From: a virus
Reading direction: 5' to 3' (one strand)
Virus record (IMG/VR): IMGVR_UViG_3300036766_000359
Coordinates: 1 to 64,000 of that record
Length of the DNA stretch: 64,000 bases
Part shown: one piece after another, positions 27,686 to 64,000 of the stretch
How positions within the stretch are numbered: the stretch's first letter is position 1
How the letters are laid out: the number at the start of each line of letters is the position of its first letter
Notes under the pieces: generated by a model
Databases searched by the model: none
Told to the model about the DNA's origin: nothing
What the model saw: only the letters and a program-made list of their open reading frames with translations
Program-made: the position numbers and the translations under genes

Positions 27686-27714
27686 GGTATACTCATAAGT
27701 GAAAAATTTATCAA
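27686..27714 (-). promoter_or_regulatory. Sigma70-like promoter for the abundant virion protein
   Basis: The minus strand has TTGATA, 17 bases and TATACC, overlapping the stop of the upstream GIY-YIG gene. The predicted leader is about 65 bases and ends with AGGAGAT before the ATG at 27613. Confidence 0.5.
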
Positions 27715-45750: not shown

Positions 45751-45832
45751 TGCGTACACAACGGTCTAAAATAACTCTAAGAGAAGTAGGTAAACTCGGT
45801 GTAAATTTGGAGGGTTGAAGAGTATATGGTAT

Positions 45833-46484: not shown

Positions 46485-46502
46485 ATGGATTGGGTTTAGC
46501 CT
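46485..46502 (+). repeat. 18-bp repeat at gene end (copy 2)
   Basis: ATGGATTGGGTTTAGCCT matches 10622-10639 at 17 of 18 positions. It also contains the stop of the convergent LRV gene. The frame would encode only MDWV. Confidence 0.6.
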
Positions 46503-47251
46503 TCCGGGAAACCTACTGAAGCGATAATCCGATTCAAATCTCTCGCCACAAGATCTCGGTCGGGATTCTTTGAAGAATCAATCTTCGAAGCAATACGACG
46601 AAGTTGACTTGCGAGTTGTGACGGCTTCATATGAAGCACACTGGCTAATTTGGCCTTGATTTCTGAAGGCGCTTTCTTATTACGGGCTAACTCCTTACGA
46701 ACTTCTGCACTATCATCATCTGCTAATTTAGCCAAGATCTCTGGAGGCGTACTCGGATTACGGGCTACACGAGAACGAACACCCTCATCATCATCATCTG
46801 CTAGTTTAGCCAAGATCTCTGGAGGCGTACTCTCCGTACGGGCGACTTCGTAACGAACGAGCTTTTCGTCATCATCTGCTAGTTTAGCCAAGATCTTCGG
46901 GGGCGTATTCGGATTACGGGCGACATCGCAACGAATTGTTAATTCATCATCATCTGCTAATTTAGCCAAGATCTCTGGAGATGTATCCGGATCCCGGGCT
47001 TGTAGCGTTTTCTCGTGGAGGGCGTCCGAATCATCGTCAAGTTTTTTATTGTTGTCGTACTCCTTCTTCTTATTTTTCATCCAGTCAATGGGACCGGCGG
47101 TATTACCATTGGATTGTCCCTGGTCTTCCGGATCCATGGCCAACAAAACTCGACGTATATCCTTAATGACAAGACCTCGATCAGGATTCCGTGATGAATC
47201 GATCGCAGCAGCGATGCGACGAAGTTGACCGGCGAGTTGTGATGGTTTCAT
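46496..47251 (-). CDS. LRV-repeat protein bracketed by identical RIA modules
   Basis: The 251 residues begin with MKPSQLAGQLRRIAAAIDSS and end with a near-copy (MKPSQLASQLRRIASKIDSS), each followed by NPDR and a second short helix (KDIRRVLLAM / RDLNRIIASV). Between them are five 26-residue units of the form RNPSTPPEILAKLADDDSAE. These are leucine-variant (LRV/HEAT-like) repeats that form a curved solenoid for binding protein or DNA. The bracket is unusual. The same brackets-around-LRV layout recurs with a different module at 61.6-63.9 kb. Function is unknown. A head-internal or processing role is inferred from position. Confidence 0.75.
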   Translation of the reverse strand: MKPSQLAGQLRRIAAAIDSSRNPDRGLVIKDIRRVLLAMDPEDQGQSNGNTAGPIDWMKNKKKEYDNNKKLDDDSDALHEKTLQARDPDTSPEILAKLADDDELTIRCDVARNPNTPPKILAKLADDDEKLVRYEVARTESTPPEILAKLADDDDEGVRSRVARNPSTPPEILAKLADDDSAEVRKELARNKKAPSEIKAKLASVLHMKPSQLASQLRRIASKIDSSKNPDRDLVARDLNRIIASVGFPEG

Positions 47252-47278
47252 AGATGCCTTCCATTCTCTGTCGAGACT

Positions 47279-47304
47279 AGGAGCCCCAGTCTTGGTAGAA
47301 GCAG
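47279..47304. repeat. 26-bp repeat, copy 1
   Basis: The minus strand reads CTTCTACCAAGACTGGGGCT plus flanks and nearly matches 48557-48582. In the other copy it encodes the end of the upstream protein (ASTKTWAP). Here it lies between genes and would read ASTKTGAP in frame with the following LRV gene, so it may be a remnant of duplication. Confidence 0.5.
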
Positions 47305-47308
47305 AGTG

Positions 47309-47776
47309 TTACTTCCCGACCGTTGCGGCAAGTTCCTTGATGTGTTTTAACGCCGCTGATTCATCTTCATTTTCCAAATCTTCTGTAATCATACCTACAT
47401 AATTTTGGATGGTAACCATATTATTAACAGCCATTTTCAGGGCTGCAGCATTGAGTTGACGACTGAGTCGCGGATTACTACTAGCAATCCGTTTGGCAAT
47501 CTTAACCAGTTCTGCGGCGTGTTCACGATGGATGTTGGACATTGTAGCTTTCTTTATTTGAGTTGCACTGGCTCGACGATCAGAAAGAAAACGAGCTTTT
47601 GCTTTTTCTGGAGTGGATTGTGGCCTACCAGTAAAGTCCCATTCTGATTTTGGATCTTCACTATTCTCTACCACACCCATCCAATATGGGTCTTCACCAT
47701 CTTTTTCATCAATCTGCACCACTACAACGCCGTCCATTACACGACGTTCAACGACATAATTTTGGAGATCGGACAT
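47309..47776 (-). CDS. Head-region protein with RIA-like helix
   Basis: The 155-residue protein has a beta-rich N-terminus (YVVERRVMDGVVVVQIDEKD, DPYWMGVVENSEDPKSEWDF). The C-terminal helical region includes AELVKIAKRIASSNPRLSRQ, a variant of the RIA module. The last helices are acidic. It is in the same reading frame as the LRV gene downstream, separated only by TAA and 19 sense codons. The function is unknown. It shares module and context with its neighbours. Confidence 0.55.
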   Translation of the reverse strand: MSDLQNYVVERRVMDGVVVVQIDEKDGEDPYWMGVVENSEDPKSEWDFTGRPQSTPEKAKARFLSDRRASATQIKKATMSNIHREHAAELVKIAKRIASSNPRLSRQLNAAALKMAVNNMVTIQNYVGMITEDLENEDESAALKHIKELAATVGK

Positions 47777-47800
47777 CTAAGTCATCCTTAACTCGACTCA

Positions 47801-48493
47801 TTATTTTAAATCTGAAGGATGTATAACAAAACTGCAGTTTTGACACTGCAAAACGCGCTTACCTTGACGATATGTACGAGGTTTGAGCATGCCCTTACAA
47901 CGTGGACAAACTACTTTCCCAGAAGATTTCTCCTTCTGGGTTACTTTGTAACGACGCTTATTGTTTTTCCAATAAATGGAAAGACGACGACCGTGCTCGT
48001 ACAAATTAGATACTGTCAGTCGGACAGCTTCTTGACCATATTCTTTACCAAAGACAGAAGCCATCCGAAAATAAGTCTCAATCTCATCCATTTCGCAATG
48101 CCACGCTTCACAAGCCGCTCTCCAAAGGGGGAGAGTCAAGTCTTCGTAAGCGTCAACAACACGTGATGAGAGCTTCTTCCGAAACTTCTGATCAGCTTTC
48201 TGAGCGGCGTCCGAGCCATCATTTCTCGCGCCTTCCCAGGTTGAATAACTCTGGTCAGCTTGAGTGATAGCAAAAAACCCAGATGTGTCCCGAATTAGTT
48301 CAGATGCAGTCTCAAGCTCTGCACCCCACGGCCATTGCACCTGAATCTTCCCAGTGTCTACGTTCGAATAGATGACGCGACCGATATACGGACTTAAAAC
48401 AAAGTCACGCAAACCAGCTTTGCGCACAACATCGCCAGTATTGAAATCCCTGGCAATCAGCTGGTCATCAACGAACGCTATTCGTGCAGTCAT
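47801..48493 (-). CDS. Head-region protein with SH3-like start and zinc ribbon end
   Basis: The 230-residue protein has an N-terminal beta region (SPYIGRVIYSNVDTGKIQVQ, WPWGAELE) resembling an SH3/KOW-like barrel. A helical middle follows, then a C-terminal zinc ribbon (CPRCKGMLKPRTYRQGKRV, CQNC). The ribosome site GAAGG precedes the ATG. A perfect 6-bp-armed hairpin (GCCAATAATATTGGC) lies in the gap upstream. The combination suggests a nucleic-acid or protein-binding role within the head cluster. I cannot name a family. Confidence 0.55.
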   Translation of the reverse strand: MTARIAFVDDQLIARDFNTGDVVRKAGLRDFVLSPYIGRVIYSNVDTGKIQVQWPWGAELETASELIRDTSGFFAITQADQSYSTWEGARNDGSDAAQKADQKFRKKLSSRVVDAYEDLTLPLWRAACEAWHCEMDEIETYFRMASVFGKEYGQEAVRLTVSNLYEHGRRLSIYWKNNKRRYKVTQKEKSSGKVVCPRCKGMLKPRTYRQGKRVLQCQNCSFVIHPSDLK

Positions 48494-48553
48494 ACGGCCT
48501 TCTCGAGTGCGGCCAATATTATTGGCGTTAGCTCAAATCCGAGACGCCGTAGA

Positions 48554-49066
48554 TCAGGGAGCCCAGGTCTTGGTAGAAGCAGCGCGGGGAGATGATCCCT
48601 GCTTCGTGCTATTACCAGCCGGACCCTTCGCCCATGAAGGCTGTTGCTTAGTGGGTTCAGACCACTCCGACAAGTCACGAATCTTATGTTCCTTACGATC
48701 AGTCACAGTGGTGGTGCGGTCCTGATCGTAGTTATTGATCGCATCGGAGTTGAAAGACTTATCCGTCCTGTGCATGTACGGTTCGTCAGAGTCCGATTGG
48801 ATAACCTTATTCGGGTTATCGAAGGTATTCATGTATGGTTCATCAGAATCCTTCTGAAGGACCTTCGCGACCTTTTCCGAGTGACGCTTCAGGGAACCCG
48901 GTCCGAATGCTGCAACCTGGAAACGGTCAGCAAACGTATCGATATCCCTCACGAGAGAAGAAGCGACCTTCGGGTCAATCTTGCCCGCTTTAACAAGGGA
49001 ATCAATTTTGTTAGCGGTCTCGTCAAGATTTGCGAGAACTCTGTTTGCAACATTCTTCTGAATCAT
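48554..49066 (-). CDS. Head-region protein with DSDEPYM repeats
   Basis: The start is the ATG at 49066; an earlier one at 49099 would add 11 residues. The 170-residue product has helical N-terminal halves (NVANRVLANLDETANKIDSL, then VASSLVRDIDTFADRFQVAA). A disordered part follows with two copies of SDSDEPYM. The end is ASTKTWAP. The helical pair resembles the RIA module family in length and spacing. Likely internal or structural to the head, by context only. Confidence 0.5.
   Translation of the reverse strand: MIQKNVANRVLANLDETANKIDSLVKAGKIDPKVASSLVRDIDTFADRFQVAAFGPGSLKRHSEKVAKVLQKDSDEPYMNTFDNPNKVIQSDSDEPYMHRTDKSFNSDAINNYDQDRTTTVTDRKEHKIRDLSEWSEPTKQQPSWAKGPAGNSTKQGSSPRAASTKTWAP
48557..48582. 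repeat. 26-bp repeat, copy 2
   Basis: Nearly the same sequence as 47279-47304. Here it forms the last codons of the DSDEPYM gene (encoding ASTKTWAP) and its stop. Confidence 0.5.
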
Positions 49067-49106
49067 AATTTCTCCGGGCTTGTTCTTTGAAACAAACATG
49101 AAAGGT

Positions 49107-50573
49107 TCACCACGTCATATCATTGACTGAAATAGATGTCGAGGCCTTTTTCTTCCCGAATGGAGGGGCCTTCTTCCCACCGAATGGGGCCTTCTTACCC
49201 TTACCCTTACCCTTACCCTTACCCTTACCCTCGTCTTCTTCGTCCTTCTTCTTAGACTTGTTGGAAGTCTTCTTCGGCTTTGTCTTCTTTTTCTTAGCAG
49301 CCAAAATGGGAAGAAGAACAGAACGAGTTTCTGGAATCTCTTGAGCGAGGCGTACCAAAGTGCTCATTTTGATGCGGACCGAACTCGTAGTAACTTTCTT
49401 GGCTGCGTCTTCAGCTTTTGAGAAAACGTTGTCAAGAGCTTTCATGAAACCCTCAATGTCATCACTTTCAAGGAGTTTTTGAGCTTTCTTAGCGTCACCG
49501 CTTAAAGAATTCAAAAGTGCCTTACCATCCTCCTCAGATAATTCATTAATGGCATCAAGTATACTCTCAAGTTTAGCCCCACCAATACCGGCAGCAACCC
49601 TAGAAGCACTTTTCTTCTTCTTAAGGGTTTCCGTCATGCTCTCCAATGCCTTGAGGAAAGCTTCAATATCTTCCGCTTGAGTAAGTTCATTCGTCTCGGC
49701 TTTAAGCGCTTCGAGATCGACAATACCTTCTTCTACTGATTCAGACATGTTCTTGTCGAACATAGACCCAGACTGCTGTTCCTGCTGTTCCTGTTGGCCC
49801 CGCTGCTCCTGCTGCTCTTCCTGGGCTGTTCGGATTGAACGAACAACTTTGACGATCTCAAGGGCAGATCGCGGATCTGATTGCCTCAGTTCAGTAGCGA
49901 TACGAAGAAGATCATTTACATTCACATTTTTCATAACTGAAGCATTCCTATTGGATTTGTGTTTTTCAGGAATAACGGTCTCGGAAAACTGATCGTGATC
50001 CCAACCTGCAAGTCTGTTCAAAAGCAGGTCATAGGTCTCTGCATCAATCTTAGACTGATAAAGACTCGAGTCAGCCGAATTAATGGCCAAATCAAGAGCT
50101 GCCCGGAATGGTGCATCATCGGAACCACCATCCCACCCATACTTTAACCAGTCATCTTTCATCAAATCTTTAGCGGTTGCTACAATAGAGTCGTAGTGCT
50201 CTTTCCCAAAATACCGCTTATCGTATGATTTATATCCAGTGTCAGTCGGACCGGATGGGTGACCCTGTCCAATAACTCCATGGAACGAAGAAGTTTTAGA
50301 TGAAAACATGGTTTCATACAGTCCAGTTCCATAAGAAGCTGCTGTACTAATAGCATCTATTATACTACCGGCAATAGATGCTAGAGACATGTCGGAGTCA
50401 AAAGACTCCATATCGGAATCTGTCTCTTTCATTCTTCGTCTTCTGTTATCGTGCTTTGGACCCTTCTTATTATCCGTCTTCCTAGACGGAGGGGTCTCTT
50501 TGTTGATCAGACGCTCTACTTGTCGTTCTTCTACTTCAGAAGGACTCAAGGAGCTATCAGAGATATGAAGCAT
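49107..50573 (-). CDS. Large head-region protein with Lys-rich tail
   Basis: The 488-residue product has an Asp/Ser-rich N-terminus and a segment DAPFRAALDLAINSADSSLY. The helix NVNDLLRIATELRQSDPRSA follows, ending SIRTAQEEQ (RIA-like). Two helical acidic blocks share a (E/D)DIE(A/G)F(L/M)KAL core. The last 60 residues are Lys/Gly/Pro-rich (KKKKTKPKKTSNKSKKKDEE then GKGKGKGKGKGKK). A basic disordered tail suggests DNA or negatively charged surface binding inside the capsid. LVRLAQEI near residue 415 repeats the R-x-A-Q-E pattern seen in the protease and scaffold. No family is known to me. Confidence 0.55.
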   Translation of the reverse strand: MLHISDSSLSPSEVEERQVERLINKETPPSRKTDNKKGPKHDNRRRRMKETDSDMESFDSDMSLASIAGSIIDAISTAASYGTGLYETMFSSKTSSFHGVIGQGHPSGPTDTGYKSYDKRYFGKEHYDSIVATAKDLMKDDWLKYGWDGGSDDAPFRAALDLAINSADSSLYQSKIDAETYDLLLNRLAGWDHDQFSETVIPEKHKSNRNASVMKNVNVNDLLRIATELRQSDPRSALEIVKVVRSIRTAQEEQQEQRGQQEQQEQQSGSMFDKNMSESVEEGIVDLEALKAETNELTQAEDIEAFLKALESMTETLKKKKSASRVAAGIGGAKLESILDAINELSEEDGKALLNSLSGDAKKAQKLLESDDIEGFMKALDNVFSKAEDAAKKVTTSSVRIKMSTLVRLAQEIPETRSVLLPILAAKKKKTKPKKTSNKSKKKDEEDEGKGKGKGKGKGKKAPFGGKKAPPFGKKKASTSISVNDMTW

Positions 50574-50603
50574 ACAAATATGCTAAACAAGATTATTAAA
50601 AAG

Positions 50604-53600
50604 TTACTCGTCCCCTTCTTCCTTACCAAACCTATCACTTTTCTTCTTGGTATATTTGAGTCCAGCGCCTTTGGCAAGTCTTTCAAGAACATCCGTTTCA
50701 TCGATAGCTTTATCGCCAGCCTTCTGAAGTAATGACTTGAGAAATTCATTGAACGTCGAGTCATTGGGTGTGAACATGTCAAGTTTGAGTTGTTCAAGCG
50801 TCTCGTCAGAGTCGATGTTCAAAAGTTCCAATATGAAAGATATCGGCAAAGAACCCTTTTGATATAGGTTGAACATGTAGTCTTGGAGTTCAGAGTTATC
50901 CCTGAGTGCGAGACGGGTAAACTGAAGCTTCGGGTATATGTACGTCTTATTGCCAGACTCGTCGATCTCAAAAAACCCTTTTTTCTCAGCAACCGGCTCA
51001 AAAAGTAACTCTTCAACAAATTGAGCTATACTTTCTCGGTATAGAAGATACATAGTATTCATGACGTCAAGATGAATACGTTCTCCGGAATAAGTCGATT
51101 CACCAGTCAACATGGATTCGGTAATACGTAGCCCAACAAACAATAACTTGTTGGTTATCTCATACTCAGTCCCGAGGTCAAGAAGACGGTCACGTGAACC
51201 GATTTCATCCCAGTGAACCTCAAAGTTTGTAACGATGGTGAAATCAGGGTCAATGATAGCCTGATCGATCTGATCACGAAGAGCGTCAACGTCTGGTTCC
51301 GACATCTTGTCGGCCCAAATAATACGTTTCGGTGTCATGGCCCGAGACGCAATCGAGGTTTGTGCCTGTCTTAACTTGTCTTGATAGACTAGCGTTCGAA
51401 GGCAATTCGCTTGCCAAATTCTATTAGCATAGAAAGAATGATCCTCATCAACATTCAAGCTATAAACTGGACCTTCATACGGAAACTTGTCGACGGATTT
51501 CACGCGATAATAAAGGAGCCCATCATAGAAACGATGTTTCCGACCCCAACCGAGCTTCTCTGGGATACGAATATCGACACTCTTTGCCAAAAATCCAGAG
51601 TCCATGACTCGAGCAACAGCTTCACTATCAGAGAAGGCCGCTTGCCAAAGGGGTTTACAATCTTTCGTAATTGTCCCATCTGGCATACGAACATCACGAG
51701 ATTTGTGTAAATGCATTGAAGGAGAAAGTCCGAGAGACTGCATGAGAAGAATTATCTGATCCATTAGTGGCTTCGTCGACATGGCCAACTGAACAGTCAC
51801 AGTTCCAGTTTTTTTCACCGTAACACAGCCATCAGAGTCTACTAGACCACGAATGAGACCGATCAAGAACTCTTTAGGAGCATCAAACACCCAACTAGGA
51901 ATATGTTTATCATCTTTTGTATGCCCAAAATTCGCAGCTAACCAGCGAGTGAATACATCATTATACCCAAGAATATTCTTAATGCTGCTCGGAGCAGCGT
52001 GTTCAGTTTCGAACCATTTAACTCCGAGTCGATCCAGAATTGGTTTCACATGCTCGGCAGACGCACAAGAGCGAGGAGACTTTGAACTATAACATACTCC
52101 AAATTGACCATAGTCAAGAGTTGAAGAGTTTTTGCGAATCCATCCATCTCCAAGCCAGTATCCAATCAAATACCCAGAGTCGCCATCCAATGGTAGGACC
52201 TTCTGAAAGGTTTTTAAAGAATTCCTAGATCTGTCTACATCTCTTCGGTTCAAAAGAGGATGGAAAGTAGTTAAATAACGTTTTCCAACCCGGACGACTT
52301 TAGATGAAACACCAAGCTCGGCCAGATGAGATCTAATTTTTGTTTTATCTGATGGATAAAAACCGAACTTTTCTAAGAATTCAGATCCAGAAACCGTGAT
52401 AGGTTCAGTTATGTTTTCAAGCCAGTCAAGAACGAATGAAATTTTATCCGCGTATGATACTTTCCTCGGGTCAGTCTCGGTCTTTGAATATTGAACAGTG
52501 AACGTTTCTGCTGTTTCATCAATAATTTCAATTGAGAGAGCAACAACCTCTCCAGACTTACGAGCAGTGTATTGAGTGGGTATCTGGGAACGAACAAAAG
52601 AGGCCAAGTTAACCAGTGAAGTGGACTCAGTCAGTTCAACTTGACTAGTTTGAACATAATCACCGGGTAACACATTTCCTGCCAAAACTTCCACTCGAGT
52701 CTCGTCCCGGAAAACTACCATCTTATGATCCGATGTTAAACGAATCGGGTCAAGAACTTTTTCAATCCTAAGTTCCGTTATTACTTCTGAAATGGGTCTC
52801 GTCCCATGGTCAAATTTTCTCCATTTACCAGATCCACCTAGAACTTCATCTATCTCCGGGTCTAAATGCTCAATTGGTATCTGTAAAATCTGTCCGTCAC
52901 GATGAGCAGTTACCTCAGTACCGGGAAGATGACAACGTTCAAGAAGAGAAATACCACGGTCGTCATATGCCGACTTCTTATGCGAAAGATGGTAACAAAA
53001 TGATGAACATAAAAAGGCATCATATGGACTTGAGTTGAGTGGAATAGGCTGACCAGATATTAGACTATCACGGATCTGATCCGGGATGTCATCAGCAATT
53101 CGCATTGACTCTTCGTCTTGTTGCTCCGAAGCCTTCATTACGAGAAGTCTATCCTTCTCGGAAGGAATGAGTTCGATCTTTGTCTTATTCGTATACTGGA
53201 ATACTTCTAGTTTAACTTGTTCAGGCGGAAGTATTTGAAGTTTTTCCCACCCGGTGTAATTCTTAGCAACGTACTCGCGAATCGTTTTATCACGCTCGTC
53301 ATCGGGTTTTGGAGAACGTTTATCTTCTTTTTTCGTTTTTGTCCGACCAGCGTAGTCAACTTCAAACGACTCTTCATCAGAATCTCCTTCTTCCGAAGGA
53401 TTAAGAAGCATATCTTCACTAATTTCAGAAGTCAGATCATGATCTTCGCAGAAAATAAAACAATTGCCATGTAACCAATATTCGTGGGTAGCATCGTAAA
53501 GAGTCTGAAATAGACGAATCTTTTTACACATCCGTTCATAAAAATGAAGAATGTTTTTATTTTGAACTTTATCTTTTCCTTTCGGAAGAGATAAACGAAT

Positions 53601-55109
53601 TTTGCTCATCGGAACATCAGTGTGAAAATCTATGGCCGATCCGACAATAGGGTGTGTATTATGAGTTGAAAGACTGTGAGCTATGTAACTTTTCCGATCA
53701 CCATCACCATATACTTCGAGGTTATAGACAATTCCTTTGTACGGGATCGACTCAAGCTTTTCGATTCGGTGTAAATACCCGAAATCGGTGTCAACTAGGT
53801 ATACACGGGTGGAGCGAGCATCATATACACCATCAACAAAATTTGCGTATTTACCAAATTCCGTTTGGTAACGACCAGGGAACGAAATATAATGGACGGT
53901 CCCAGGTGGAAAGACTTGACCATCTTTCATTGTTCTGGATGGACGATCATATTTTGAATGATAAGCTGGAAATCCTGCACGACGTGCAAGTTGGAACACC
54001 TGCGAAGCCAGATTAGAACTCATCGTATCAGCAGTATAAGAGTTATCAGTGAAACAACCGTCACCATTCCAATAAGCACCGAGGAAGTTAAGGATCAACT
54101 CAACCGGAGCATTCACAACGGCTTCACTCAAACATTTTTCATGTGAACCATTCCCGCCATTGCGAAGGCAGAAATCCAAGAATTCCATTGAGTCACACAC
54201 AACTTTAGTCGTGTTACGAGAAGAGTCCGTGTAAATACGAGCTTTCTTCCCAAATGTAGCAAGACATAGATTTGATATTTCAACCGCGATAGTGGAAGCT
54301 TCATCAATATTAAGAGAAAATTCAACTCCTCTATGGACGCCAGCCGATCTGTAGGCAGGAGAACCCTCGGATACATAGTATCCAAGAAGTCTCATAAGAT
54401 TAGAATCAAATTCGGTCGAATTCGACCCGATCATTTTCGGAGAGACAATAAAGTCTCCGACACAAAGGTCTTTCGCGTATATAAATTCAGGAGAACCAAA
54501 ATCTTTACCAGAACATTTGGTCCGACGACAGATAGCATTTACACCACTCTTACATATTCCGGATGAATCAGTATATTTACAAGAAACCTGATTTTCTTTA
54601 TACACCAGAAATGGATGATTTCCGGTGGCTTTTATAGATGACTGAATCCCACGAACCGACATTCTGACAATATTGTCATCAATGTCATTATGGAATAGTT
54701 CTTTTACGGTAGTTAACTCACCAAGCCCATTCGGAATCTTGTCTCCGATTTTGATATTCTCAATCGGACGAGTGGTCCCGTCAGACATGAGAATAGGGGT
54801 ACCAGGAGGGAAACATGTGTACCAAAATCTAAAAAGTTCACGCTTCTCGCGTTCAGACTGAGGAAGTTCAAGAAAGTCGGTTGATAATTGAGGACTGTAA
54901 AAAGCGGAGTCCGCGTTTGATATGGATTGTGAACCGGAATTACCAAAATCGCCAGCAAAAGAAGCCACACGAATTGACTGGGAAGCTTCACGCCTAGCCA
55001 TCTTCTCGAGTTTCGTAAGTTTGGACTTGGTAGCAGTCTGCTCCACTGCTTCCGTAACCGGAAAATTCGGTTTTGAGGATTTAACTCTTATTTTAGGTTT
55101 TTTAGGCAT
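50604..55109 (-). CDS. Portal protein interrupted by two inteins
   Basis: The 1501-residue reading frame contains two inteins; removal leaves about 605 residues, normal for a portal. The extein fragments join as ...FRFWYT-THPIVGSAIDFHTDVP... and ...ISLLER-CLRTLVYQDKLRQAQ... The first joint is a portal-like segment near the clip/stem. Helical ends (LLFVGLRITESMLTGESTYS, FILELLNIDSDETLEQLKLD) match portal C-terminal regions. A 12-mer portal would form the DNA gate at one capsid vertex. The gene is directly downstream of terminase and two small genes. Translated and spliced as one precursor. Confidence 0.85.
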   Translation of the reverse strand: MPKKPKIRVKSSKPNFPVTEAVEQTATKSKLTKLEKMARREASQSIRVASFAGDFGNSGSQSISNADSAFYSPQLSTDFLELPQSEREKRELFRFWYTCFPPGTPILMSDGTTRPIENIKIGDKIPNGLGELTTVKELFHNDIDDNIVRMSVRGIQSSIKATGNHPFLVYKENQVSCKYTDSSGICKSGVNAICRRTKCSGKDFGSPEFIYAKDLCVGDFIVSPKMIGSNSTEFDSNLMRLLGYYVSEGSPAYRSAGVHRGVEFSLNIDEASTIAVEISNLCLATFGKKARIYTDSSRNTTKVVCDSMEFLDFCLRNGGNGSHEKCLSEAVVNAPVELILNFLGAYWNGDGCFTDNSYTADTMSSNLASQVFQLARRAGFPAYHSKYDRPSRTMKDGQVFPPGTVHYISFPGRYQTEFGKYANFVDGVYDARSTRVYLVDTDFGYLHRIEKLESIPYKGIVYNLEVYGDGDRKSYIAHSLSTHNTHPIVGSAIDFHTDVPMSKIRLSLPKGKDKVQNKNILHFYERMCKKIRLFQTLYDATHEYWLHGNCFIFCEDHDLTSEISEDMLLNPSEEGDSDEESFEVDYAGRTKTKKEDKRSPKPDDERDKTIREYVAKNYTGWEKLQILPPEQVKLEVFQYTNKTKIELIPSEKDRLLVMKASEQQDEESMRIADDIPDQIRDSLISGQPIPLNSSPYDAFLCSSFCYHLSHKKSAYDDRGISLLERCHLPGTEVTAHRDGQILQIPIEHLDPEIDEVLGGSGKWRKFDHGTRPISEVITELRIEKVLDPIRLTSDHKMVVFRDETRVEVLAGNVLPGDYVQTSQVELTESTSLVNLASFVRSQIPTQYTARKSGEVVALSIEIIDETAETFTVQYSKTETDPRKVSYADKISFVLDWLENITEPITVSGSEFLEKFGFYPSDKTKIRSHLAELGVSSKVVRVGKRYLTTFHPLLNRRDVDRSRNSLKTFQKVLPLDGDSGYLIGYWLGDGWIRKNSSTLDYGQFGVCYSSKSPRSCASAEHVKPILDRLGVKWFETEHAAPSSIKNILGYNDVFTRWLAANFGHTKDDKHIPSWVFDAPKEFLIGLIRGLVDSDGCVTVKKTGTVTVQLAMSTKPLMDQIILLMQSLGLSPSMHLHKSRDVRMPDGTITKDCKPLWQAAFSDSEAVARVMDSGFLAKSVDIRIPEKLGWGRKHRFYDGLLYYRVKSVDKFPYEGPVYSLNVDEDHSFYANRIWQANCLRTLVYQDKLRQAQTSIASRAMTPKRIIWADKMSEPDVDALRDQIDQAIIDPDFTIVTNFEVHWDEIGSRDRLLDLGTEYEITNKLLFVGLRITESMLTGESTYSGERIHLDVMNTMYLLYRESIAQFVEELLFEPVAEKKGFFEIDESGNKTYIYPKLQFTRLALRDNSELQDYMFNLYQKGSLPISFILELLNIDSDETLEQLKLDMFTPNDSTFNEFLKSLLQKAGDKAIDETDVLERLAKGAGLKYTKKKSDRFGKEEGDE
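51405..52934 (-). mobile_element. Portal intein 2 (LAGLIDADG, AN/C end)
   Basis: Residues about 726-1235 (510). It starts with CHLPGTEVTAHRDGQILQIP; block B is RLTSDHKM. LAGLIDADG helices are YLIGYWLGDGWI and LIGLIRGLVDSDGCV. Block F is VYSLNVDEDHSFYANRIW. It ends QAN with Cys following, so the penultimate residue is Ala instead of His. Confidence 0.85.
53658..54815 (-). mobile_element. Portal intein 1 (LAGLIDADG, HN/T end)
   Basis: Residues about 99-484 (386). It starts CFPPGTPILMSDGTTRPIEN; block B is IKATGNHPFLV. LAGLIDADG-like helices are LMRLLGYYVSEGS and FLGAYWNGDGCF. A cluster of cysteines occurs near CKYTDSSGICKSGVNAIC. It ends THN with Thr as the next residue, a canonical end. Confidence 0.85.
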
Positions 55110-55127
55110 GTTTATAACGAGATCACA

Positions 55128-55487: not shown

Positions 55488-55490
55488 GCT

Positions 55491-55781
55491 TCACCATACT
55501 ACGGACACGGGTTTAGAAGCTATAATAACAGCAATTTTCCCATCACCACGGGACTTCACAAGATGTTCAATGGCATCTTCAATTATTTTTACTGACCTCA
55601 TATCCCCGTCCATAAGACGTTGCCAAGAACCTCCACGACGTAGAAAGTCGTGGTATAACCCCACAAAGTCTTTATTTGACATTTCTTCGTCATCGCCATA
55701 TATATGGTCCATGATTTGACGAGAAATCAAATAGGCTGTCGTGTCTTTGACACCGGCCCTACCTTTTGATTCAGTATTCAC
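55491..55781 (-). CDS. Small alpha/beta protein after the terminase
   Basis: The 96-residue protein has helices (KDTTAYLISRQIMDHIYGDD, then DFVGLYHDFLRRGGSWQRLM) and a final strand (GDGKIAVIIASKP). Nothing is recognised. It lies 24 bp downstream of the large terminase in the same operon. Confidence 0.5.
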   Translation of the reverse strand: MNTESKGRAGVKDTTAYLISRQIMDHIYGDDEEMSNKDFVGLYHDFLRRGGSWQRLMDGDMRSVKIIEDAIEHLVKSRGDGKIAVIIASKPVSVVW

Positions 55782-55804
55782 GAGTTAAAAAGTGTACGAA
55801 AGGG

Positions 55805-57754
55805 CTAGGAAATTCTTTTTGCTTGCCTAGAAACAGAACGGGAGCTAACCCCGTGTAGTCTAGCACGTTGTCGATGAAACTGACCATAACCGCCAATAGA
55901 ACGCCCGGTGGGACCAGTATTTGAAACTTGACGAATTGACGAATCAAGGACCCCTGGGTTATCACGAACATATTCCATCGCCAGCATAATCGAACGAGCA
56001 AGGGAGTCTGACATATCATCATGTTTCCCGGAAATTTTTGGTGCTTCAACCACTATAATATTTTTACCACTAGATGAAGACTGAAGTTCCAATAACTCAG
56101 TTACCAATGGAGAATGACGAATGCTTTGATTTTCTGCCGAGGCTTGTTCTGGTATCGGCCAATCATATATACCGATCTGACGGTGTAACATGGCCATTTT
56201 AAATGTCTGCCACATTTGAGATGTATCAGATGGGAAGAAATTTCGCATCTCAAATTGCTTCAAATTTTTCTTATGAAGAACTTGTTCAAAAACCGGACCA
56301 GCCCACTGATCGAAAACACCGCGATAGATGTAAAACTTACGAGATAAAGCAAAAAACCAGTTTGCAATTTCGTCAAGATCAAGGCGCGGTTGGTCCTGAA
56401 GAGTCATGGCGTAAGGAACTATCGGGATATCAAGGTGCGGATTTGACTCTCTCCAACTTTTACGTGGATACCAGACCTCATGGTATATGAGTTCTATCCT
56501 TCCACCAGACAGGTGAGTGATGGCAATGGCAGTACCATCATTTGAAATACCGAAGTCGACACCAGCCCAGTGTACTTCTCTGGGGTATCCACTAAGGGAA
56601 GGACGAAGAGAAGGAATAATGCAATCCTGAAGGTCTTTCGAGTCTTCAATAAAACCACGGACACGATCAGAAAATTCAGCCCCGTACTCCGTCATGAACG
56701 ATTTCGGGTCTTTCGCGTATTCGACGCGATAGTCCTCTGAAGATAGTGTCGGGTTCACTTCCCAAGTAGGGGCCTGGATTATGAGAGTATTTGACGACTC
56801 AACACCTCCGGACATCGCTTGCTTACAAAGTTTGTAGAAAAATCCTTCTTTTGAATTCGGTGAAGAAATTAGAACCATTCGACCATCGGTCGGACCGATC
56901 GGGTTGTGTTTGTTTTTCGGGTCTTTCGGAGTAAATTGTTTGAGAGATGGAGAAAGACCTCGATATACCTGTTCTGCCGAAGAATTACCATCGTCAATAA
57001 AGAAAGCAATTTCGTCTAGGATGGCACATATTACACCACGTCCACGAAGTCCTTTAGCAATTGAACTTTTGAAAGTTGCAGTAATCGTCGCTTTCCCGTC
57101 AGGACCAAAGCGTTTCTTATCGCTTTCGGTACGAAATTTTACGTATGTTTGGGTGTCGTGAGCGACGTTATTTTTAAAGTAGTCAACGGCCTGAATATGA
57201 GCCTGGATGTCACTGTATACGATGGAAGCTTGCTCTTTGTCATTAGCTATGTCTAGTACACGAATTTCAGTACCATGAGGAAGTCCATAGTGAGCTTGCG
57301 GAGACCCACGTTTCAGTAGTTTATAAAGTTCATAGGCGGCGAACACGGCGGCCATCGAACTCTTACCTGAACGTCGTCCGAGGATAAGTATTAGTTCTCT
57401 ACGTGTTTTACCATCTTGTTCCTTTACATTACATCTTCCTTGATCATATAAGTATCTAAGGTATTCAAGTTCAGTGAATTCATGAACTACACGTTCACCA
57501 AACTTATCTTTAACAAGGATTACTTTATGGACGTCATCAAGGGGAATGTTATAGTATAATTTGACAATGAATTTCTGAGTTGGGAACAAACCATGTGGAA
57601 AAAGTTTAAATTTTTCAATAAATTCAACGATAGTGAGAAAATTTTCGTCTCCATCTTCTCCGTCTTCTCCACGTCTATCACGACGTTTCCTATCGAGGAA
57701 GTCTGAAACTTCTCCGGTTAGTTGACTCTGAAATTTAGGTTCTTTAATTGGCAC
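55805..57754 (-). CDS. terL: Large terminase subunit
   Basis: The 649-residue protein has an ATPase half with Walker A GRRSGKSS (126-133), Walker B VICAILDEIAFF (241-252) and motif III ISSPN. Its nuclease half has the RNase H-type acidic residue in WAGVDFGISNDGTAI (Asp400) and a late acidic site in HDDMSDSLARSIM. TerL packages DNA into the prohead through the portal and cuts it. Length is normal. A GIY-YIG gene sits three bases upstream, between it and a possible small terminase. Confidence 0.9.
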   Translation of the reverse strand: MPIKEPKFQSQLTGEVSDFLDRKRRDRRGEDGEDGDENFLTIVEFIEKFKLFPHGLFPTQKFIVKLYYNIPLDDVHKVILVKDKFGERVVHEFTELEYLRYLYDQGRCNVKEQDGKTRRELILILGRRSGKSSMAAVFAAYELYKLLKRGSPQAHYGLPHGTEIRVLDIANDKEQASIVYSDIQAHIQAVDYFKNNVAHDTQTYVKFRTESDKKRFGPDGKATITATFKSSIAKGLRGRGVICAILDEIAFFIDDGNSSAEQVYRGLSPSLKQFTPKDPKNKHNPIGPTDGRMVLISSPNSKEGFFYKLCKQAMSGGVESSNTLIIQAPTWEVNPTLSSEDYRVEYAKDPKSFMTEYGAEFSDRVRGFIEDSKDLQDCIIPSLRPSLSGYPREVHWAGVDFGISNDGTAIAITHLSGGRIELIYHEVWYPRKSWRESNPHLDIPIVPYAMTLQDQPRLDLDEIANWFFALSRKFYIYRGVFDQWAGPVFEQVLHKKNLKQFEMRNFFPSDTSQMWQTFKMAMLHRQIGIYDWPIPEQASAENQSIRHSPLVTELLELQSSSSGKNIIVVEAPKISGKHDDMSDSLARSIMLAMEYVRDNPGVLDSSIRQVSNTGPTGRSIGGYGQFHRQRARLHGVSSRSVSRQAKRIS

Positions 57755-57757
57755 AAA

Positions 57758-58600
57758 CTAAACCGCGATGGACTTAGCACGTTTTTCTTTAAATTTTTTG
57801 GTGTAAAAACGACGGCATCGACGACACTCATAATAAACAATACCATTACGAGTCAAAGAAAAACATTCTTCTAAAGAAACCTGTCCATGCTTTTTACATA
57901 ATTTGTGAGTTTGTGTTTGGGTTGGTCTAGGCATTGCGTGCCTCATTCTTATTCCAGTCATACGTTCATCAGCTTTCTGCCTCTGAATAATGGACATTCT
58001 AATCTTCGATTCTTCAGTATGTCTTCGACCTGTTAACTTCTGTGAAATCTTTTTACGTGTTTCTAAACTAACAGTCTTGTATTTAAGTGCTTCAGAAATT
58101 TTTCTGCATGTCTCTTCGGACATTACATGACCTCTCAACGCAGAAGATAACTTCGAGCGGACATCCGAAGACTTCTTATGTCCAAGCATACGACATGATA
58201 TTGCAGAACGAACTTCTGCACTTAAAACTCGGCCTGTATTAATTAAAGACATCTTTGATCTAAAATCTTGACTGGAAAAAATGGCTGAATTAATACGTGA
58301 ACCTCCACCTTTCATAATGTTGAATCCTATTTTTGGATCTCGTGTTCCTTCTTGTTCAATTATTGCAAATTCGGTGGCGTTAGCTCCTTCAAGATCCCAG
58401 CTCATTGCAAGAACTTGATGTTCAAACGCATCTTTCCCATATAGACGGATCGCGTTTGCAAAATGAGATCTACTGTCCTTAACATGCTTGGACTGTGAGC
58501 AATGTTGGTTCCAACGATGCATCATCGTATACTGAGTCAAGCCAATATAACGACGTCCGGTATCAATATGGGTATGACAGTAAATGGTCCAGTATTTCAT
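57758..58600 (-). CDS. GIY-YIG homing endonuclease between terminase genes (paralogue 4)
   Basis: The 280-residue protein has the family GIY-YIG core (YWTIYCHTHIDTGRRYIGLT, MMHRWNQHCSQ, EFAIIEQEGTRDP). The second half has NUMOD3-like units (LSAEVRSAISCRMLGHKKSS, SEETCRKISEALKYKTVSLE) and a C-terminal Cys pair (CKKHGQ...CRRCRRF). It is closest to the copy at 3.4-4.3 kb in its first 95 residues. A short MDWV-like frame precedes it. Insertion beside terminase targets a highly conserved locus. Confidence 0.85.
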   Translation of the reverse strand: MKYWTIYCHTHIDTGRRYIGLTQYTMMHRWNQHCSQSKHVKDSRSHFANAIRLYGKDAFEHQVLAMSWDLEGANATEFAIIEQEGTRDPKIGFNIMKGGGSRINSAIFSSQDFRSKMSLINTGRVLSAEVRSAISCRMLGHKKSSDVRSKLSSALRGHVMSEETCRKISEALKYKTVSLETRKKISQKLTGRRHTEESKIRMSIIQRQKADERMTGIRMRHAMPRPTQTQTHKLCKKHGQVSLEECFSLTRNGIVYYECRRCRRFYTKKFKEKRAKSIAV

Positions 58601-58615
58601 ATCAGACCCAATCCA

Positions 58616-59194
58616 TTAAAGTTCTAGCCTCTTCTCCCAGTCCTCCATGTCAGCTTCCATTTGTTTAAAAACAACATCAATAGTAGACTCTGGAAGGTCT
58701 GATTTTGACATCGAACTGTAAACAAATTCCATCCACACATGGAGAATTTGTTTAAATTTTGGACTTTTCAAATCAAATCTATCAGACCTAAAGTTTTCTT
58801 GTCGTTTATTAAGTATGTCGGCAAGTTGACGAAGAGAGGCTATTCTGGATATTGTATAGTTAGCAGTGTTTTTTCCCTCTTCAGTAGCTTTTCGTCGTTC
58901 ATACTTTAAATGGGATAATTCTTCAGTTATCTCTTCTAAGACAACATCGATTACATCCGATATTGAAGCTTTTTCGGCAACAACACGAACAAGCTTCTGG
59001 GAAGACACGAAATTTTCCCGTTTACGGATTTCCCGTTCAATGGATTTCGGGTCTATGAGTTCTGGTATTGATACATCAGAACCTTGACCAACTATATAGT
59101 CAGCACCGACTTCCCCGGCGTCAACCTTTTTACCGCCAGGAAATGTAATTACCTGACCGTTCTTTCCCTTATCCTCGTCTTTATCGTCACTCAT
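58616..59194 (-). CDS. Possible small terminase or head-assembly protein
   Basis: The 192-residue protein is acidic at the start and mostly helical after residue 50 (SIEREIRKRENFVSSQKLVR, then IDVVLEEITEELSHLKYERR). It lies upstream of the large terminase, where small terminase genes usually are; size fits too. I see no clear helix-turn-helix DNA-binding domain. The call is from position and helical content only. A scaffold-related or unassigned structural role is the alternative. Confidence 0.45.
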   Translation of the reverse strand: MSDDKDEDKGKNGQVITFPGGKKVDAGEVGADYIVGQGSDVSIPELIDPKSIEREIRKRENFVSSQKLVRVVAEKASISDVIDVVLEEITEELSHLKYERRKATEEGKNTANYTISRIASLRQLADILNKRQENFRSDRFDLKSPKFKQILHVWMEFVYSSMSKSDLPESTIDVVFKQMEADMEDWEKRLEL

Positions 59195-59264
59195 TTACTG
59201 ACAATACGCGCTGTCAGGAAAAGTTGTGCTTAACTAGACAGACCTGCGGTCAGACAGATTTAGC

Positions 59265-61220
59265 CTAACAAACTCCACCAGGGATAAAGAAATCAGGTCC
59301 CTTTGACCTTACTCCCCCAAAGTCAACGGATAACTCACTTGAGAGCTCATACTTCTCAACGGGGTTCTCAACAGCAATACGTGGCTGGATTACAGGCAGT
59401 TTCCGGGAAGCAGCGACGTGCTCCCGAACTTGCGCAGGAACCTGCCTGATAATGCCTTTTGCGTACTTGGAACACCATCCCGGTGCCGTCTGAAGGGTGC
59501 ACCCGGTACATTGACCAGCTGCGAGAACGTACGGGGCTCCTTGCTTACGGAAGTGCTTCGCTCCGCTTGTACAACCCTTACCATAGTCATGGTATGCAGT
59601 AGGGTCAATGAAATAGGTACCCTGGATACCATCATCTAAAGAGGCCCGACGACCAATCTCAGGAACCTGGCGAAGGTCATCCGTCGAATAACGGTTGAGG
59701 AGTGACTCTTGAAGAGAGCGGCCGGAAAGACCGGTATTCATCATATGAGATAACGTCTTGCGAACTTCTTCTGGATCCATATCAGAAGCGACGTTCACAT
59801 CACTACGACCAGGATCCCCGTAATGAGCAGAGGAGCGCGAACCACCGTATTCAGTCGGTTTGGTAGAAACTGGAGACTCGTAAAGGTTAGCTTGAGAAAC
59901 AAGCTTCACCCAAGAAGAATTCTCAGAAACACCAGCAAGGGCCAAAGATGCCTGGTCAGAAGCAACCCGACCTTGAGCGACAGCCCTTCCGATAGCTAGT
60001 TCAAAAGCTTCTCGCCCGACATCTGACTTCGAAGCCATGATACTACAACAAGACCTGATTGCAGCACAAGCACCGTCAGAGGCACCGTTGCAAATGGAAC
60101 AAGATGCAGAACGACGAACAGCGTAATCGGGAGAAAACCCACGTTTATTTATCAAGGACAAAGTATTGCGACATCCACCAAGAGCGTCAATGTCGAAATA
60201 CGTATGACCAAGAATGCCATATTCGCTTGCAAGCGCACGAAGACTCGGGTCCGTTGATGCCACCAAAGCATTACGGTCATCAGCACCTTGCATCATTCGA
60301 CGAGCGTACTTAACCCAAGACGAGGAAGGAGCACTATCACGTTTCGGGGCCTGAACAGAATTCGCAGCGATGAAACTAGACACATCATCACTGGTAATGC
60401 GCTGTTTCGTGGCAGCAGGCTGATAATGAGAAGTCTGAGTCTCACTATCTCGAAGAGCTATCGGAGACTTCAAGAAAGCAGACCGAAGACGATCTTTCCA
60501 CTCACGACCAGAAATTGTGCTACCGTCTACAGATAAAGGTCGTTTTTCTGCAGCCAACCGAGGGGCATAATGGGAGGCAACACTCGCACTCCATGGAACT
60601 TCACTAACAACCTTTTTACCACCGAAGGTTGAGCATGTTCCGGTGTTATGACAGTTACATCCATTTCTACCGCCACACCCTCCGATAACGAAGATTGCAT
60701 TTTTCCCGAAAGTCGTAGCGTATTTACGTTCTTTCGGGTCGCGGTGAGCATTCGGGAAATGACTAGCGTCAATATAAACGTTTCCAAGGACGCCGCGCTC
60801 GAGCATGACTTCACGGATGGCATCCGAAGCAAATCTAATATCCGCTGGAGCGAATTCAAGACGGACTCGTTTTTCGATGTCTGAAGAAGAAAGACCAGCC
60901 ATTACGAGTTTGGCAACACGATTTCGAATCGGAACAGTTTGGTCCGCGTCAGATATCTTCGGCGTAATCGGGTTCTGGTTTACGATCGTGTGCGGTCGCA
61001 ACGGGATGACATGGGGTACCCCGTCATCCTTTGGGTCAACAACAAGAGCTTTTTGGAGCTCGGGAATTATGTCCAGATTCTGACGTGGCAACGCTTCAAG
61101 AGATCTATACTCTTCTTCATCAACTGACAGCCAAGAAAGATCAGAAATCCCCTGATTGTGAATCAGTGTCGAAATGTCACCAAGACCACGCTCGGTATAA
61201 GTATCTTTTTTATCTGCCAT
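59265..61220 (-). CDS. Virion-region protein with three Cys-rich repeats
   Basis: The start is the ATG at 61220 with AGAGG before it. The 651-residue product carries three roughly 100-residue repeats. Each opens with a helical stretch and G-x-x-G-x-x-Y-(I/F)-D (GVLGNVYIDASHF, GILGHTYFDIDAL, GIQGTYFIDPTAY) and ends in a Cys cluster: GGCGGRNGCNCHNTGTC; CSICNGASDGACAAIRSCC; CTGCTLQTAPGWC. The arrangement suggests a metal-binding or disulfide-linked domain repeated three times. It precedes the small and large terminase candidates. I do not recognise a family; structural or injected proteins are candidates. Confidence 0.6.
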   Translation of the reverse strand: MADKKDTYTERGLGDISTLIHNQGISDLSWLSVDEEEYRSLEALPRQNLDIIPELQKALVVDPKDDGVPHVIPLRPHTIVNQNPITPKISDADQTVPIRNRVAKLVMAGLSSSDIEKRVRLEFAPADIRFASDAIREVMLERGVLGNVYIDASHFPNAHRDPKERKYATTFGKNAIFVIGGCGGRNGCNCHNTGTCSTFGGKKVVSEVPWSASVASHYAPRLAAEKRPLSVDGSTISGREWKDRLRSAFLKSPIALRDSETQTSHYQPAATKQRITSDDVSSFIAANSVQAPKRDSAPSSSWVKYARRMMQGADDRNALVASTDPSLRALASEYGILGHTYFDIDALGGCRNTLSLINKRGFSPDYAVRRSASCSICNGASDGACAAIRSCCSIMASKSDVGREAFELAIGRAVAQGRVASDQASLALAGVSENSSWVKLVSQANLYESPVSTKPTEYGGSRSSAHYGDPGRSDVNVASDMDPEEVRKTLSHMMNTGLSGRSLQESLLNRYSTDDLRQVPEIGRRASLDDGIQGTYFIDPTAYHDYGKGCTSGAKHFRKQGAPYVLAAGQCTGCTLQTAPGWCSKYAKGIIRQVPAQVREHVAASRKLPVIQPRIAVENPVEKYELSSELSVDFGGVRSKGPDFFIPGGVC

Positions 61221-61596
61221 CACCAACCTCTAACATTTTCAAATCCGCAATTACGCTCGAAAGGCTCGCAACGCAGTGTTTAAGTTTAGAAGATGTTTCG
61301 GGGATGGTAGCACTCGTCTCCAATTTGATAAGCTCACCAAGAATTGAAGATATGGATACCATACCATCCGAGGCCGTCTTAGCAATGGGAAATTCGTCAA
61401 GAACATCTTTCACGAATACCGAGTGGCGAAGTTTTAGGCACCGGATAATATCCGATGCTAAAAATTGTGGTTGATTAAGATTTGACAAGAACGCCATAAC
61501 ATGTCGTCGAGTTAATTCCTTCTTCCCAAACTTCTTCATGAAGTCTTGGGTTAAATCTGATACTAATAGTATATTAGTTGCTCGACGTTTTTCCAT
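61210..61596 (-). CDS. Small helical protein
   Basis: The start is taken at the ATG at 61596, which has GGAG nine bases upstream; 61611 and a TTG at 61632 are alternatives. The 128-residue product is helical and slightly acidic (TNILLVSDLTQDFMKKFGKK, then LSSVIADLKMLEVGDGR). Its end overlaps the start of the Cys-rich gene by 11 bp, suggesting coupled translation. No family is seen. Confidence 0.5.
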   Translation of the reverse strand: MEKRRATNILLVSDLTQDFMKKFGKKELTRRHVMAFLSNLNQPQFLASDIIRCLKLRHSVFVKDVLDEFPIAKTASDGMVSISSILGELIKLETSATIPETSSKLKHCVASLSSVIADLKMLEVGDGR

Positions 61597-61621
61597 ATGA
61601 TCAGTCTCCATCACAAAGTTA

Positions 61622-63937
61622 TTAACTAACAAGATGAATATTACTCAATAAATCGAGCGCGGATGAAATCCGGTCAGAAAATGTGGTAGCTAGATTCAAA
61701 CGTTTTTTTGCTGCTTCACGAGCATACCAAAAACTATCATTAACTAGTTTAGTCAAGACCTCTTGAGACGTACTCGGATTCCCGGCCACATTAGTGCGAA
61801 CTATGTCATTTTCATCTTCGGATAATTTAGTCAAGATCTTTTGAGACGTATTTGGATTCTTGGCTAAACTCTGACGAACAGCATAACTCTCGTCATTAGC
61901 TAGTTTATTCAAAATTTCTACAGGCGTATTCGGATTCCCGGCCACACCCTCACGAACACGATTACTTTCATCGTCAGATAACTTAATCAACACCTCTGGT
62001 GGTGCATGCTTTACATAAGCTATACTCGAACGAATATCATTATCCCAATGATTATTACCATTATTATTATTAGCTAACTCAATCAACACTTCTGGAGGCG
62101 TATTCGGATTTTCAATTACAAGAACACGTTGACCCGTTTCATAACTAGCTAGTTCACTTAATATTTCTGGTGATGTCTTTGGACTCTTGGCTAAGTATTT
62201 AAAAATTTTGCCATCTTTCTTAGCCATTTTTTTCAAGATATCTTGAGACATATTCGGATTACTGATCGCACCATCACGAACCTCCCAACGTTCATCATTA
62301 ACTAACTTAGCCAAGGTTTCTGGGGGCGTTCTATGATTATAAGAAATACCCTGACGAACAGTATAGAATTTGTCATCATGTAGTTTAGTCAAGATTTTTA
62401 GATTAACATTTGGATTCCTGACTACGTACGAACGAACCTCCCAGTGTTCATCATCAGATAGTTTATCTAGTGTCTCTGATGACGTCATCGGATTATTGGC
62501 TACACCTGAACGAACAATGTAATCCCGATCGTTAGCTAATTTATCCAAAGTATCCGCAGGTAATTTTGAATTCTTTGATAAGGAAAAACGAATCCTTGAA
62601 TCCTCATCGTTAGCTAGTTTAACAAGTGCTTCTGGAGGCGCACTAGAATTATTAGACACATAACTACGGACGCCATAATTTGCATCATCAGATAACTTAG
62701 TCAACACCTCTGGAGGTGTATTACGATTCTTAGCAATCTCAAAACGAATTGAAATATTTTCATCGTCAGATAATATTACTAAAACTTCCACTGGAACGTT
62801 ACGATTCTTTAACAAAAACAAACGAACTACATAATCAACGTCATTAGATAACTTAATCAACACCTCTGGAGGTGTGTTAGGATTCTTGGCTATGTTCTGA
62901 CGAACAGGGTTATTTTCGTCATTAGATAACTTAGTCAACACTTCTGGAGGTGCATTCTCATTACCGGATATTTCCTTACGAACACGTATATTCGAGTTAT
63001 TAGATAACCCATCAAAGAATTCAGGAGGAGCATAACTTATACCTCTTCCTGACTGTAAACCATTTTTCTCAATCCACTTCCATACATACAAACGATATTT
63101 TTTCGATGGTTCTGAGTTCTTCTTTCCTTTTACTTGTTCAATTTCGCCATCATCGGTAAGTTCGATTGTTATATGTGGTTTGTTATCGGAGTCACGAAGG
63201 CTGAATATCTTGGTGCCATTTTCAACTTGATCTTTGTATGAACCAACGCAATGACCCATTAAAGTACCTTCAGCGTCTAGGTCCTCTACGGGAACGAGAA
63301 CCATCGTGTATCCATCACCAAAGTCATAGTCTACATCATTTGTTTTGTAAGAAACACTTTCATCCGATTCAACAAAACTTTCATGCCATTCGTCTGATAA
63401 CTCTTTAGCTTCTTCAAAATCGAGTTTTTCAAGATCTGGTTCTTGATCTCTAATCCAATCAGATATGTTGGTTAACTCTTCCGATTCTGGAGGTTCTAAA
63501 CCATTCTCGATTTTGGTCGCTAACCACTTAGCAGTGTTTTTTTCTTTAATCTTATAATCTTCAATGATTTGAATAGTTTCAGCACTAAATAGTGGCCCAG
63601 ATTTTGCCAATTCTTGCAAACGTTCATAGTATGAACGAGCATCTTCTGATTTGTCTCGTTTATTTGTCTTCTGAAGTTTTTTTAAATTTAGATCAACCAA
63701 ATAATCTAAACTATTAGCAAGATGAATGTTATCAAGTATATCGAGCACGGACGAAATTCGATCAGAAAATGCCAAATAATCCGTTGATACGACAATACTA
63801 CCACCATCTTGAAGGTCACTTCTATCATAGTCAACATTCTCAAGAAAATCTTCGGATGGGTGACCACTCGGTCCAGATATGTCCTCTGTTTCATGACCAG
63901 ACCAGAAATTGCCGAGAGAATTCAAGAAGTTATCCAT
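61622..63937 (-). CDS. PcfJ-like protein with about 16 LRV repeats, bracketed by FSDRISS modules
   Basis: The 771 residues have three parts. Residues 55-80 contain AFSDRISSVLDILDNIHLAN. A PcfJ-like domain (TMVLVPVEDLDAEGTLMGHC, VGSYKDQVENGTKIFSLRDS, EQVKGKKNSEPS) spans about 205-285. About 16 LRV units of 26 residues follow (PPEVLTKLSDDANYGVRSYV and similar). The last 20 residues repeat the bracket (TFSDRISSALDLLSNIHLVS). The frame is open upstream to the window edge, so the start may lie further out. The PcfJ-plus-solenoid fusion suggests a protein or DNA binding scaffold. Function unknown; head location inferred from context. Confidence 0.7.
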   Translation of the reverse strand: MDNFLNSLGNFWSGHETEDISGPSGHPSEDFLENVDYDRSDLQDGGSIVVSTDYLAFSDRISSVLDILDNIHLANSLDYLVDLNLKKLQKTNKRDKSEDARSYYERLQELAKSGPLFSAETIQIIEDYKIKEKNTAKWLATKIENGLEPPESEELTNISDWIRDQEPDLEKLDFEEAKELSDEWHESFVESDESVSYKTNDVDYDFGDGYTMVLVPVEDLDAEGTLMGHCVGSYKDQVENGTKIFSLRDSDNKPHITIELTDDGEIEQVKGKKNSEPSKKYRLYVWKWIEKNGLQSGRGISYAPPEFFDGLSNNSNIRVRKEISGNENAPPEVLTKLSNDENNPVRQNIAKNPNTPPEVLIKLSNDVDYVVRLFLLKNRNVPVEVLVILSDDENISIRFEIAKNRNTPPEVLTKLSDDANYGVRSYVSNNSSAPPEALVKLANDEDSRIRFSLSKNSKLPADTLDKLANDRDYIVRSGVANNPMTSSETLDKLSDDEHWEVRSYVVRNPNVNLKILTKLHDDKFYTVRQGISYNHRTPPETLAKLVNDERWEVRDGAISNPNMSQDILKKMAKKDGKIFKYLAKSPKTSPEILSELASYETGQRVLVIENPNTPPEVLIELANNNNGNNHWDNDIRSSIAYVKHAPPEVLIKLSDDESNRVREGVAGNPNTPVEILNKLANDESYAVRQSLAKNPNTSQKILTKLSEDENDIVRTNVAGNPSTSQEVLTKLVNDSFWYAREAAKKRLNLATTFSDRISSALDLLSNIHLVS

Positions 63938-64000
63938 CGTGACTTCGTTCTTCGTGACTCCGGGAAGGCTGTCCGACTCTTCAGAAGAATATGAACCGGA

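Follow-up and report, generated by a model that had tools for sequence, protein, structure and literature searches.

Two genes in this phage DNA, gene A and gene B, each encode an LRV array with a similar short segment on either side, and the two arrangements are probably the products of two different events. The segment found at both ends of gene A (module A) would be a docking or targeting tag that also acts as a recombination joint, whereas the repeated segments of gene B (module B) would be the edges of an inserted cassette. The original prediction had seen in both genes two independent cases of one designed architecture, a solenoid bracketed by matching tags. That reading is unsupported, because relatives carry module A on proteins that have no LRV repeats, and LRV genes occur that have no brackets.

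The window analyzed here takes up the first 64 kb of a virus record (G000) that is 192,972 bp long. Among its products are a portal (PHROG E=3e-18), a large terminase and a major head protein (39932-40819; E=1.3e-44), and it is therefore from a tailed phage. The head proteins of this phage also include a protease and the products of 41717-42967 and 49107-50573. We compared it with 42 related phage records, all of which are metagenomic, such that any joint described below could in principle be an assembly error. The portal gene (50604-55109) contains two intein-like inserts that are absent from the portal genes of contigs L009 and L011, and one intein-like insert lies in the head-protease gene (43009-45759). 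Also located in the window are four related GIY-YIG-like endonuclease genes (3362-4306, 25608-26519, 27711-28607 and 57758-58600) and a gene for an 848-aa collagen-like protein with G-x-T repeats (19572-22118). The features of the two genes are listed in the table.

Table. Coordinates of features in the window
Feature	Coordinates	Strand	Basis
Gene A: module A, LRV array and second module A copy; 251 aa	46496..47251	-	translation; PF01816 E=3.6e-22; structure model
Module A copy 1, N-terminal, residues 1-40	47132..47251	-	ATG preceded by GGAAGG
LRV array of gene A (approximate)	46634..47002	-	PF01816 match, structure model
Module A copy 2, residues 208-247, interpreted as the start of another module-A gene, now fused	46511..46630	-	sequence, strain comparison
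Recombination joint in copy 2, at nucleotide 38	46592..46593	-	divergence point between G000 and L012
Single copy of ~94-bp segment (empty site)	47274..47363	-	doubled around ~385-bp insert in L012
Module A inside gene 8592-9401	8910..9032	-	same body in relative L027 has the module at its N-terminus
Module A, C-terminal side of gene 35663-36709	36458..36577	+	position kept in G001 and G005/G007
Gene B: N-terminal half of host2 and PcfJ-LRV cassette	61622..64000 (on to 64498)	-	full-record frame, domain matches
Gene B bracket 1: start of PcfJ-LRV cassette, common to other cassettes	63716..63769	-	sequence comparison
PcfJ domain (PF14284)	63095..63334	-	Pfam match
LRV array of gene B (approximate)	61688..63025	-	PF01816, structure model
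Gene B bracket 2: probable partial duplicate of cassette start at right junction, then stop	61625..61681	-	DNA repeat; pLDDT <50
C-terminal half of host2, now a separate frame	61210..61632	-	matches residues 242-365 of uninterrupted L011 gene

Module A in gene A and across the clade

Gene A reads MKPSQLAGQLRRIAAAIDSS... LRV ... MKPSQLASQLRRIASKIDSS... FPEG, and the claim that it begins and ends with the same MKPSQLA module was confirmed, on the minus strand. The two copies are each 40 residues long, their first 83 bp align ungapped at about 78% identity, and the left copy used as the sole query against 990 ORFs recovered the right copy with E=7.6e-13. The array between them is equally real, scoring 77.6 bits against a curated Pfam cut-off of 21.6 (PF01816, E=3.6e-22). 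A structure model based on an alignment of only four sequences has a mean pLDDT of 76, rising above 90 in the LRV part, and the Azotobacter LRV protein (PDB 1lrv) is among its top structural matches. The same helix-loop-helix is predicted at both ends of the protein, at residues 3-18/25-39 and 210-226/232-246. A Shine-Dalgarno-like GGAAGG is found upstream of the ATG of the first module, and is absent before the second. Two copies of a 22-bp sequence, CTTCTACCAAGACTGGGGCTCC, lie close to gene ends in this region (47280-47301 and 48558-48579), against a chance expectation of 0.

A profile search detected six copies of module A in the record: the two in gene A, one in the middle of gene 8592-9401, one on the C-terminal side of gene 35663-36709, and one at the N-terminus of each of genes 119448-119873 and 120004-120408. 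Among the 42 related records, 13 have the module in 1-10 copies each, and 10 of these 13 lack any LRV match; LRV repeats are found in only 4 of the 42 and PcfJ in only 3. Records with the module have a terminase at least about 56% identical to that of the window or are linked to it by other genes, with the exception of one marginal match in G012 (E=9.9e-4). The module consensus has no match among cultured phages, nor does gene 35663-36709, and there is no module in Tunturi_5, a distant cultured relative by terminase.

From these records we extracted 45 distinct occurrences of module A, about 32 of which are located at or near a start codon while the rest are internal or C-terminal; one protein (L106) has a tandem pair. 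The bodies to which the module is joined fall into 33 clusters. Those that can be recognized are the ferritin-like domain of L158 (E=1.9e-12), the pentapeptide repeats of L105 (E=2.5e-35) and the LRV array. In a scan of 42 module-A proteins, no two had a Pfam or PHROG family in common. The ferritin-like protein, with the module at its N-terminus, is encoded at 1078-1668 of L158, which comes from a 436-kb phage record. Across the 42 proteins A14 and P23 are invariant, and P3 and S20 nearly so; I17 is another conserved position. Ratios of dN/dS between module copies were 0.31, 0.17 and 0.13 in three comparisons, each a small sample of 22-40 codons, and the combination of high synonymous and low amino-acid change indicates that the module is kept as protein. 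When 45-residue segments from the N-termini of 260 called genes were searched against all called genes, no other such segment was clearly common to otherwise unrelated proteins; the other matches belonged to GIY-YIG, LRV, collagen-like, tail-like and tandem paralog families.

Module A would therefore be a helix-loop-helix of ~40 residues that one clade of large phages places on many unrelated small proteins, usually at the N-terminus. Given that its protein sequence is kept, that it lies mostly at the start codon and that it is also found C-terminally or doubled, we infer that it docks or targets these proteins to a common phage partner.

A probable exchange inside the module at gene A

Sister strain L012, in which the surrounding DNA is 97-99% identical to that of the window, differs sharply at gene A. 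The two strains are identical over ~200 bp before module copy 2 and through the first 38 nucleotides of that copy; past nucleotide 38 identity falls to ~67% within the module, and beyond it there is no clear similarity. After the joint, L012 encodes a domain of ~95 residues, whereas in our record FPEG is followed by a stop and nothing more. A third, truncated module copy lies 3' of the ~95-residue domain in L012, its ATG overlapping the stop codon (ATGA), and matches copy 2 over 73 bp at 90% identity. The strains also differ by an insert of ~385 bp, which in L012 sits between 94-bp direct repeats and is replaced in our record by one repeat copy. Directly past the row of module-A genes in L012 is another GIY-YIG-like endonuclease gene (L012 3405-4424).

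On the simplest reading of this alignment, several module-A genes lie in a row, the first and second of them joined in frame, and crossovers within the module would swap the body downstream. Gene A would then be an LRV payload behind module A, joined to the start of the next module-A gene, whose own body may since have been exchanged or lost. If crossovers fall in the conserved module, the tag would stay constant while the payloads behind it turn over. The one sister strain fits both a gene fusion and the entry of the LRV part into a module-A gene. The brackets had been proposed as recombination units that let the array expand and contract. A joint does lie inside copy 2, and short direct repeats do flank inserts; however, what is exchanged is the whole payload and not the number of LRV repeats.

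Polymorphic toxins exchange their tips in a similar manner, having a constant N-terminal part and an exchangeable C-terminal part, with orphan tips located downstream. As in those systems, module A combines a constant segment with a variable payload, a crossover in the constant part and a truncated extra copy downstream. Unlike polymorphic toxins, no toxin domain, immunity gene or secretion signal was found at module A, and its constant part is only 40 residues.

PcfJ-LRV cassettes and other LRV genes

Gene B had been taken to start at 63937, but in the full record its frame runs beyond the window to an ATG at 64498 and encodes 958 aa. The first bracket, described as lying near the N-terminus, is therefore internal, at about residue 244 of 958. 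Also overlooked was a PcfJ domain located between bracket 1 and the LRV array (52.2 bits versus a cut-off of 25; PF14284, E=7.5e-14), with residues 203-281, as counted from 63937, matching profile positions 58-142 of 147. The LRV array itself is real (187.9 bits versus the Pfam cut-off of 21.6; PF01816, E=2.4e-57), as are both FSDRISS copies, which share 45 of 57 bases when the best of 20,000 random codon strings shared 29. At the protein level the resemblance of the two copies is modest, with E=0.0044 from left to right and 3.4e-4 from right to left. The structure model, again from a four-sequence alignment, is confident for the LRV repeats, whereas bracket 2 has a pLDDT <50 and bracket 1 falls in a low-confidence helix. 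Structure prediction thus finds one helical hairpin at both ends of gene A but gives no support for the gene B brackets as defined folded domains. A common origin of modules A and B was ruled out (hhalign probability 0.4%).

Comparison with relatives points to the origin of gene B. Just upstream of the terminase region, L011 has two genes, host1 and host2, that are single frames of 455 and 367 aa, and host2 is uninterrupted in nine contigs (L011, L022-L026, L031, L033 and L053). In our record one PcfJ-LRV cassette is found in each of them. Host2 is split into 61622-64498 and 61210-61632, and host1 into 66548-67240 and 64499-66529, about 100 host residues having been lost from the latter. In L010 and L009, which overlapping end sequences suggest are neighboring contigs, a cassette occupies the same place in host2 and another lies early in host2. 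In gene B and three other cassettes PcfJ scores above the Pfam cut-off. A motif like FSxRISxxLxxLDNIHxA stands at the head of the cassettes, and bracket 1 is therefore cassette sequence. In L010/L009 the repeat is longer, at 93 bp, and takes in host flank (GGRIVVST...), which points to bracket 2 being a duplication of the left junction and not a designed tag. Thus, a PcfJ-LRV cassette would have inserted into a conserved phage gene and split host2, the left bracket being the start of the cassette and the right bracket an incomplete second copy of this edge at the opposite junction. Here a PcfJ-like domain is fused to LRV repeats and inserted into phage genes, and LRV arrays, known from proteins such as that of Azotobacter, lie in phage genes behind module A or PcfJ. 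No relatives of the PcfJ cassette or of the terminase were found in bacterial genomes, and among the papers searched there was nothing relevant on LRV or PcfJ proteins in phages.

A transposon with classical target-site duplications was considered for these inserts and rejected, as the repeats (57-94 bp) are unequal and partly cassette sequence, and PcfJ and LRV are the only domains found inside the gene B insert. It is also improbable, in our view, that the repeats are footprints of mobile elements in a broader sense, with module A and the PcfJ-LRV cassette both moved by a dedicated mechanism that duplicates its target. Cassettes at three or more positions, empty sites in relatives, direct repeats flanking the inserts and the GIY-YIG endonuclease genes nearby would all suit such a mechanism, but the uneven repeats and meager domain content speak against it here too, and at host1 residues were lost rather than duplicated.

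Matched brackets are absent from six further LRV genes of this phage. Five at 160.8-170.0 kb (L018) and a short one at about 104.9 kb (L015) have a common LDALEAAxxVTxS-like C-terminal cap, and the flanking similarity of gene 64499-66529 is short and of another kind (SELNKIRR). In G002 two tandem LRV genes (L165, G002 11433-14654) have a different N-terminal domain and no brackets; the GTKWCIS motif of that domain may be comparable to HCVGSY in PcfJ. In this phage LRV arrays seem to have multiplied, while most relatives have none. Brackets as an LRV-specific feature were rejected, given that module A is mostly on non-LRV proteins and these six genes are unbracketed.

It is accordingly very doubtful that the matching tags at the ends form a functional architecture by which an LRV solenoid is closed or anchored, whether through dimer closure or two-ended targeting. 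Such an architecture would explain why the ends of gene A are the same predicted hairpin, with both copies constrained at the protein level, and the gene B edges are also matched in L009/L010. Nevertheless, a profile search of relatives finds module A mostly on non-LRV proteins, in L012 the second copy precedes the ~95-residue domain and so is no terminal bracket, the six LRV genes above and the two of G002 are unbracketed, and the gene B brackets are of low confidence in structure, one of them being internal. The proposal of a bracketed LRV architecture should be abandoned.

Possible partners of module A

Of the roles proposed for the brackets, that of targeting tag fits module A, which with its many occurrences and body clusters behaves like a promiscuous protein tag, but not module B. 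The closest parallel is the capsid-targeting sequence (CTS) of phage T4. Internal proteins that differ in the rest of their sequence have it in common, and it has been proposed to give a variety of proteins access to heads (PMC9026906). Propeptides of giant-phage head proteins, as in SPN3US, are longer and a similar role has been proposed for them (PMC5694885). Like the CTS of T4 IPI-III and Alt and the SPN3US propeptides, module A is a short, constant and mostly N-terminal segment on divergent phage proteins, here 45 occurrences with 33 body clusters. However, the T4 CTS is 10-20 residues long and strictly N-terminal, whereas module A is a predicted hairpin of about 40 residues that is N-terminal in about 32 of 45 cases and otherwise internal, C-terminal or in tandem. 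The two have no sequence match, and the likeness is treated here as an analogy. A T4-type sequence is cut off by the prohead protease at a defined motif, and is both necessary and sufficient for head packaging. By eye and without statistics, no obvious common cleavage motif was seen in the residues downstream of module A.

On the T4 analogy, the likeliest partner of module A would be the prohead core, and tagged proteins would thereby be built into the virion. Somewhat unlikely, to our reckoning, is that module A docks to a non-virion partner, such as a phage polymerase, a membrane site or a replication compartment, with no packaging into the virion. Module-A genes are scattered through the genomes, outside the head cluster too, as this alternative would anticipate, and ferritin or pentapeptide payloads could act in the infected cell. 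Against it, gene A is located inside the head gene cluster, and weak matches to the C-terminal part of head-protease families are found both in a module-A protein (L104, E=1.5e-4) and in the neighbor of gene A at 48554-49099 (E=7.5e-4). We tentatively suggest that module A may be a previously undescribed virion-cargo tag of a large-phage clade, a portable 40-residue hairpin that docks ferritin, pentapeptide-repeat, LRV and many unknown proteins to the prohead core, the cargo being swapped through recombination within the tag.

Whatever the function, payload turnover behind a constant segment has here been caught in phages by comparing two almost identical strains. Should module A prove to be a cargo or docking tag, it would single out in one step the proteins assembled or carried together by these uncultured large phages, the majority of them otherwise unannotated, and it would be a second modular cargo tag to set beside that of T4.
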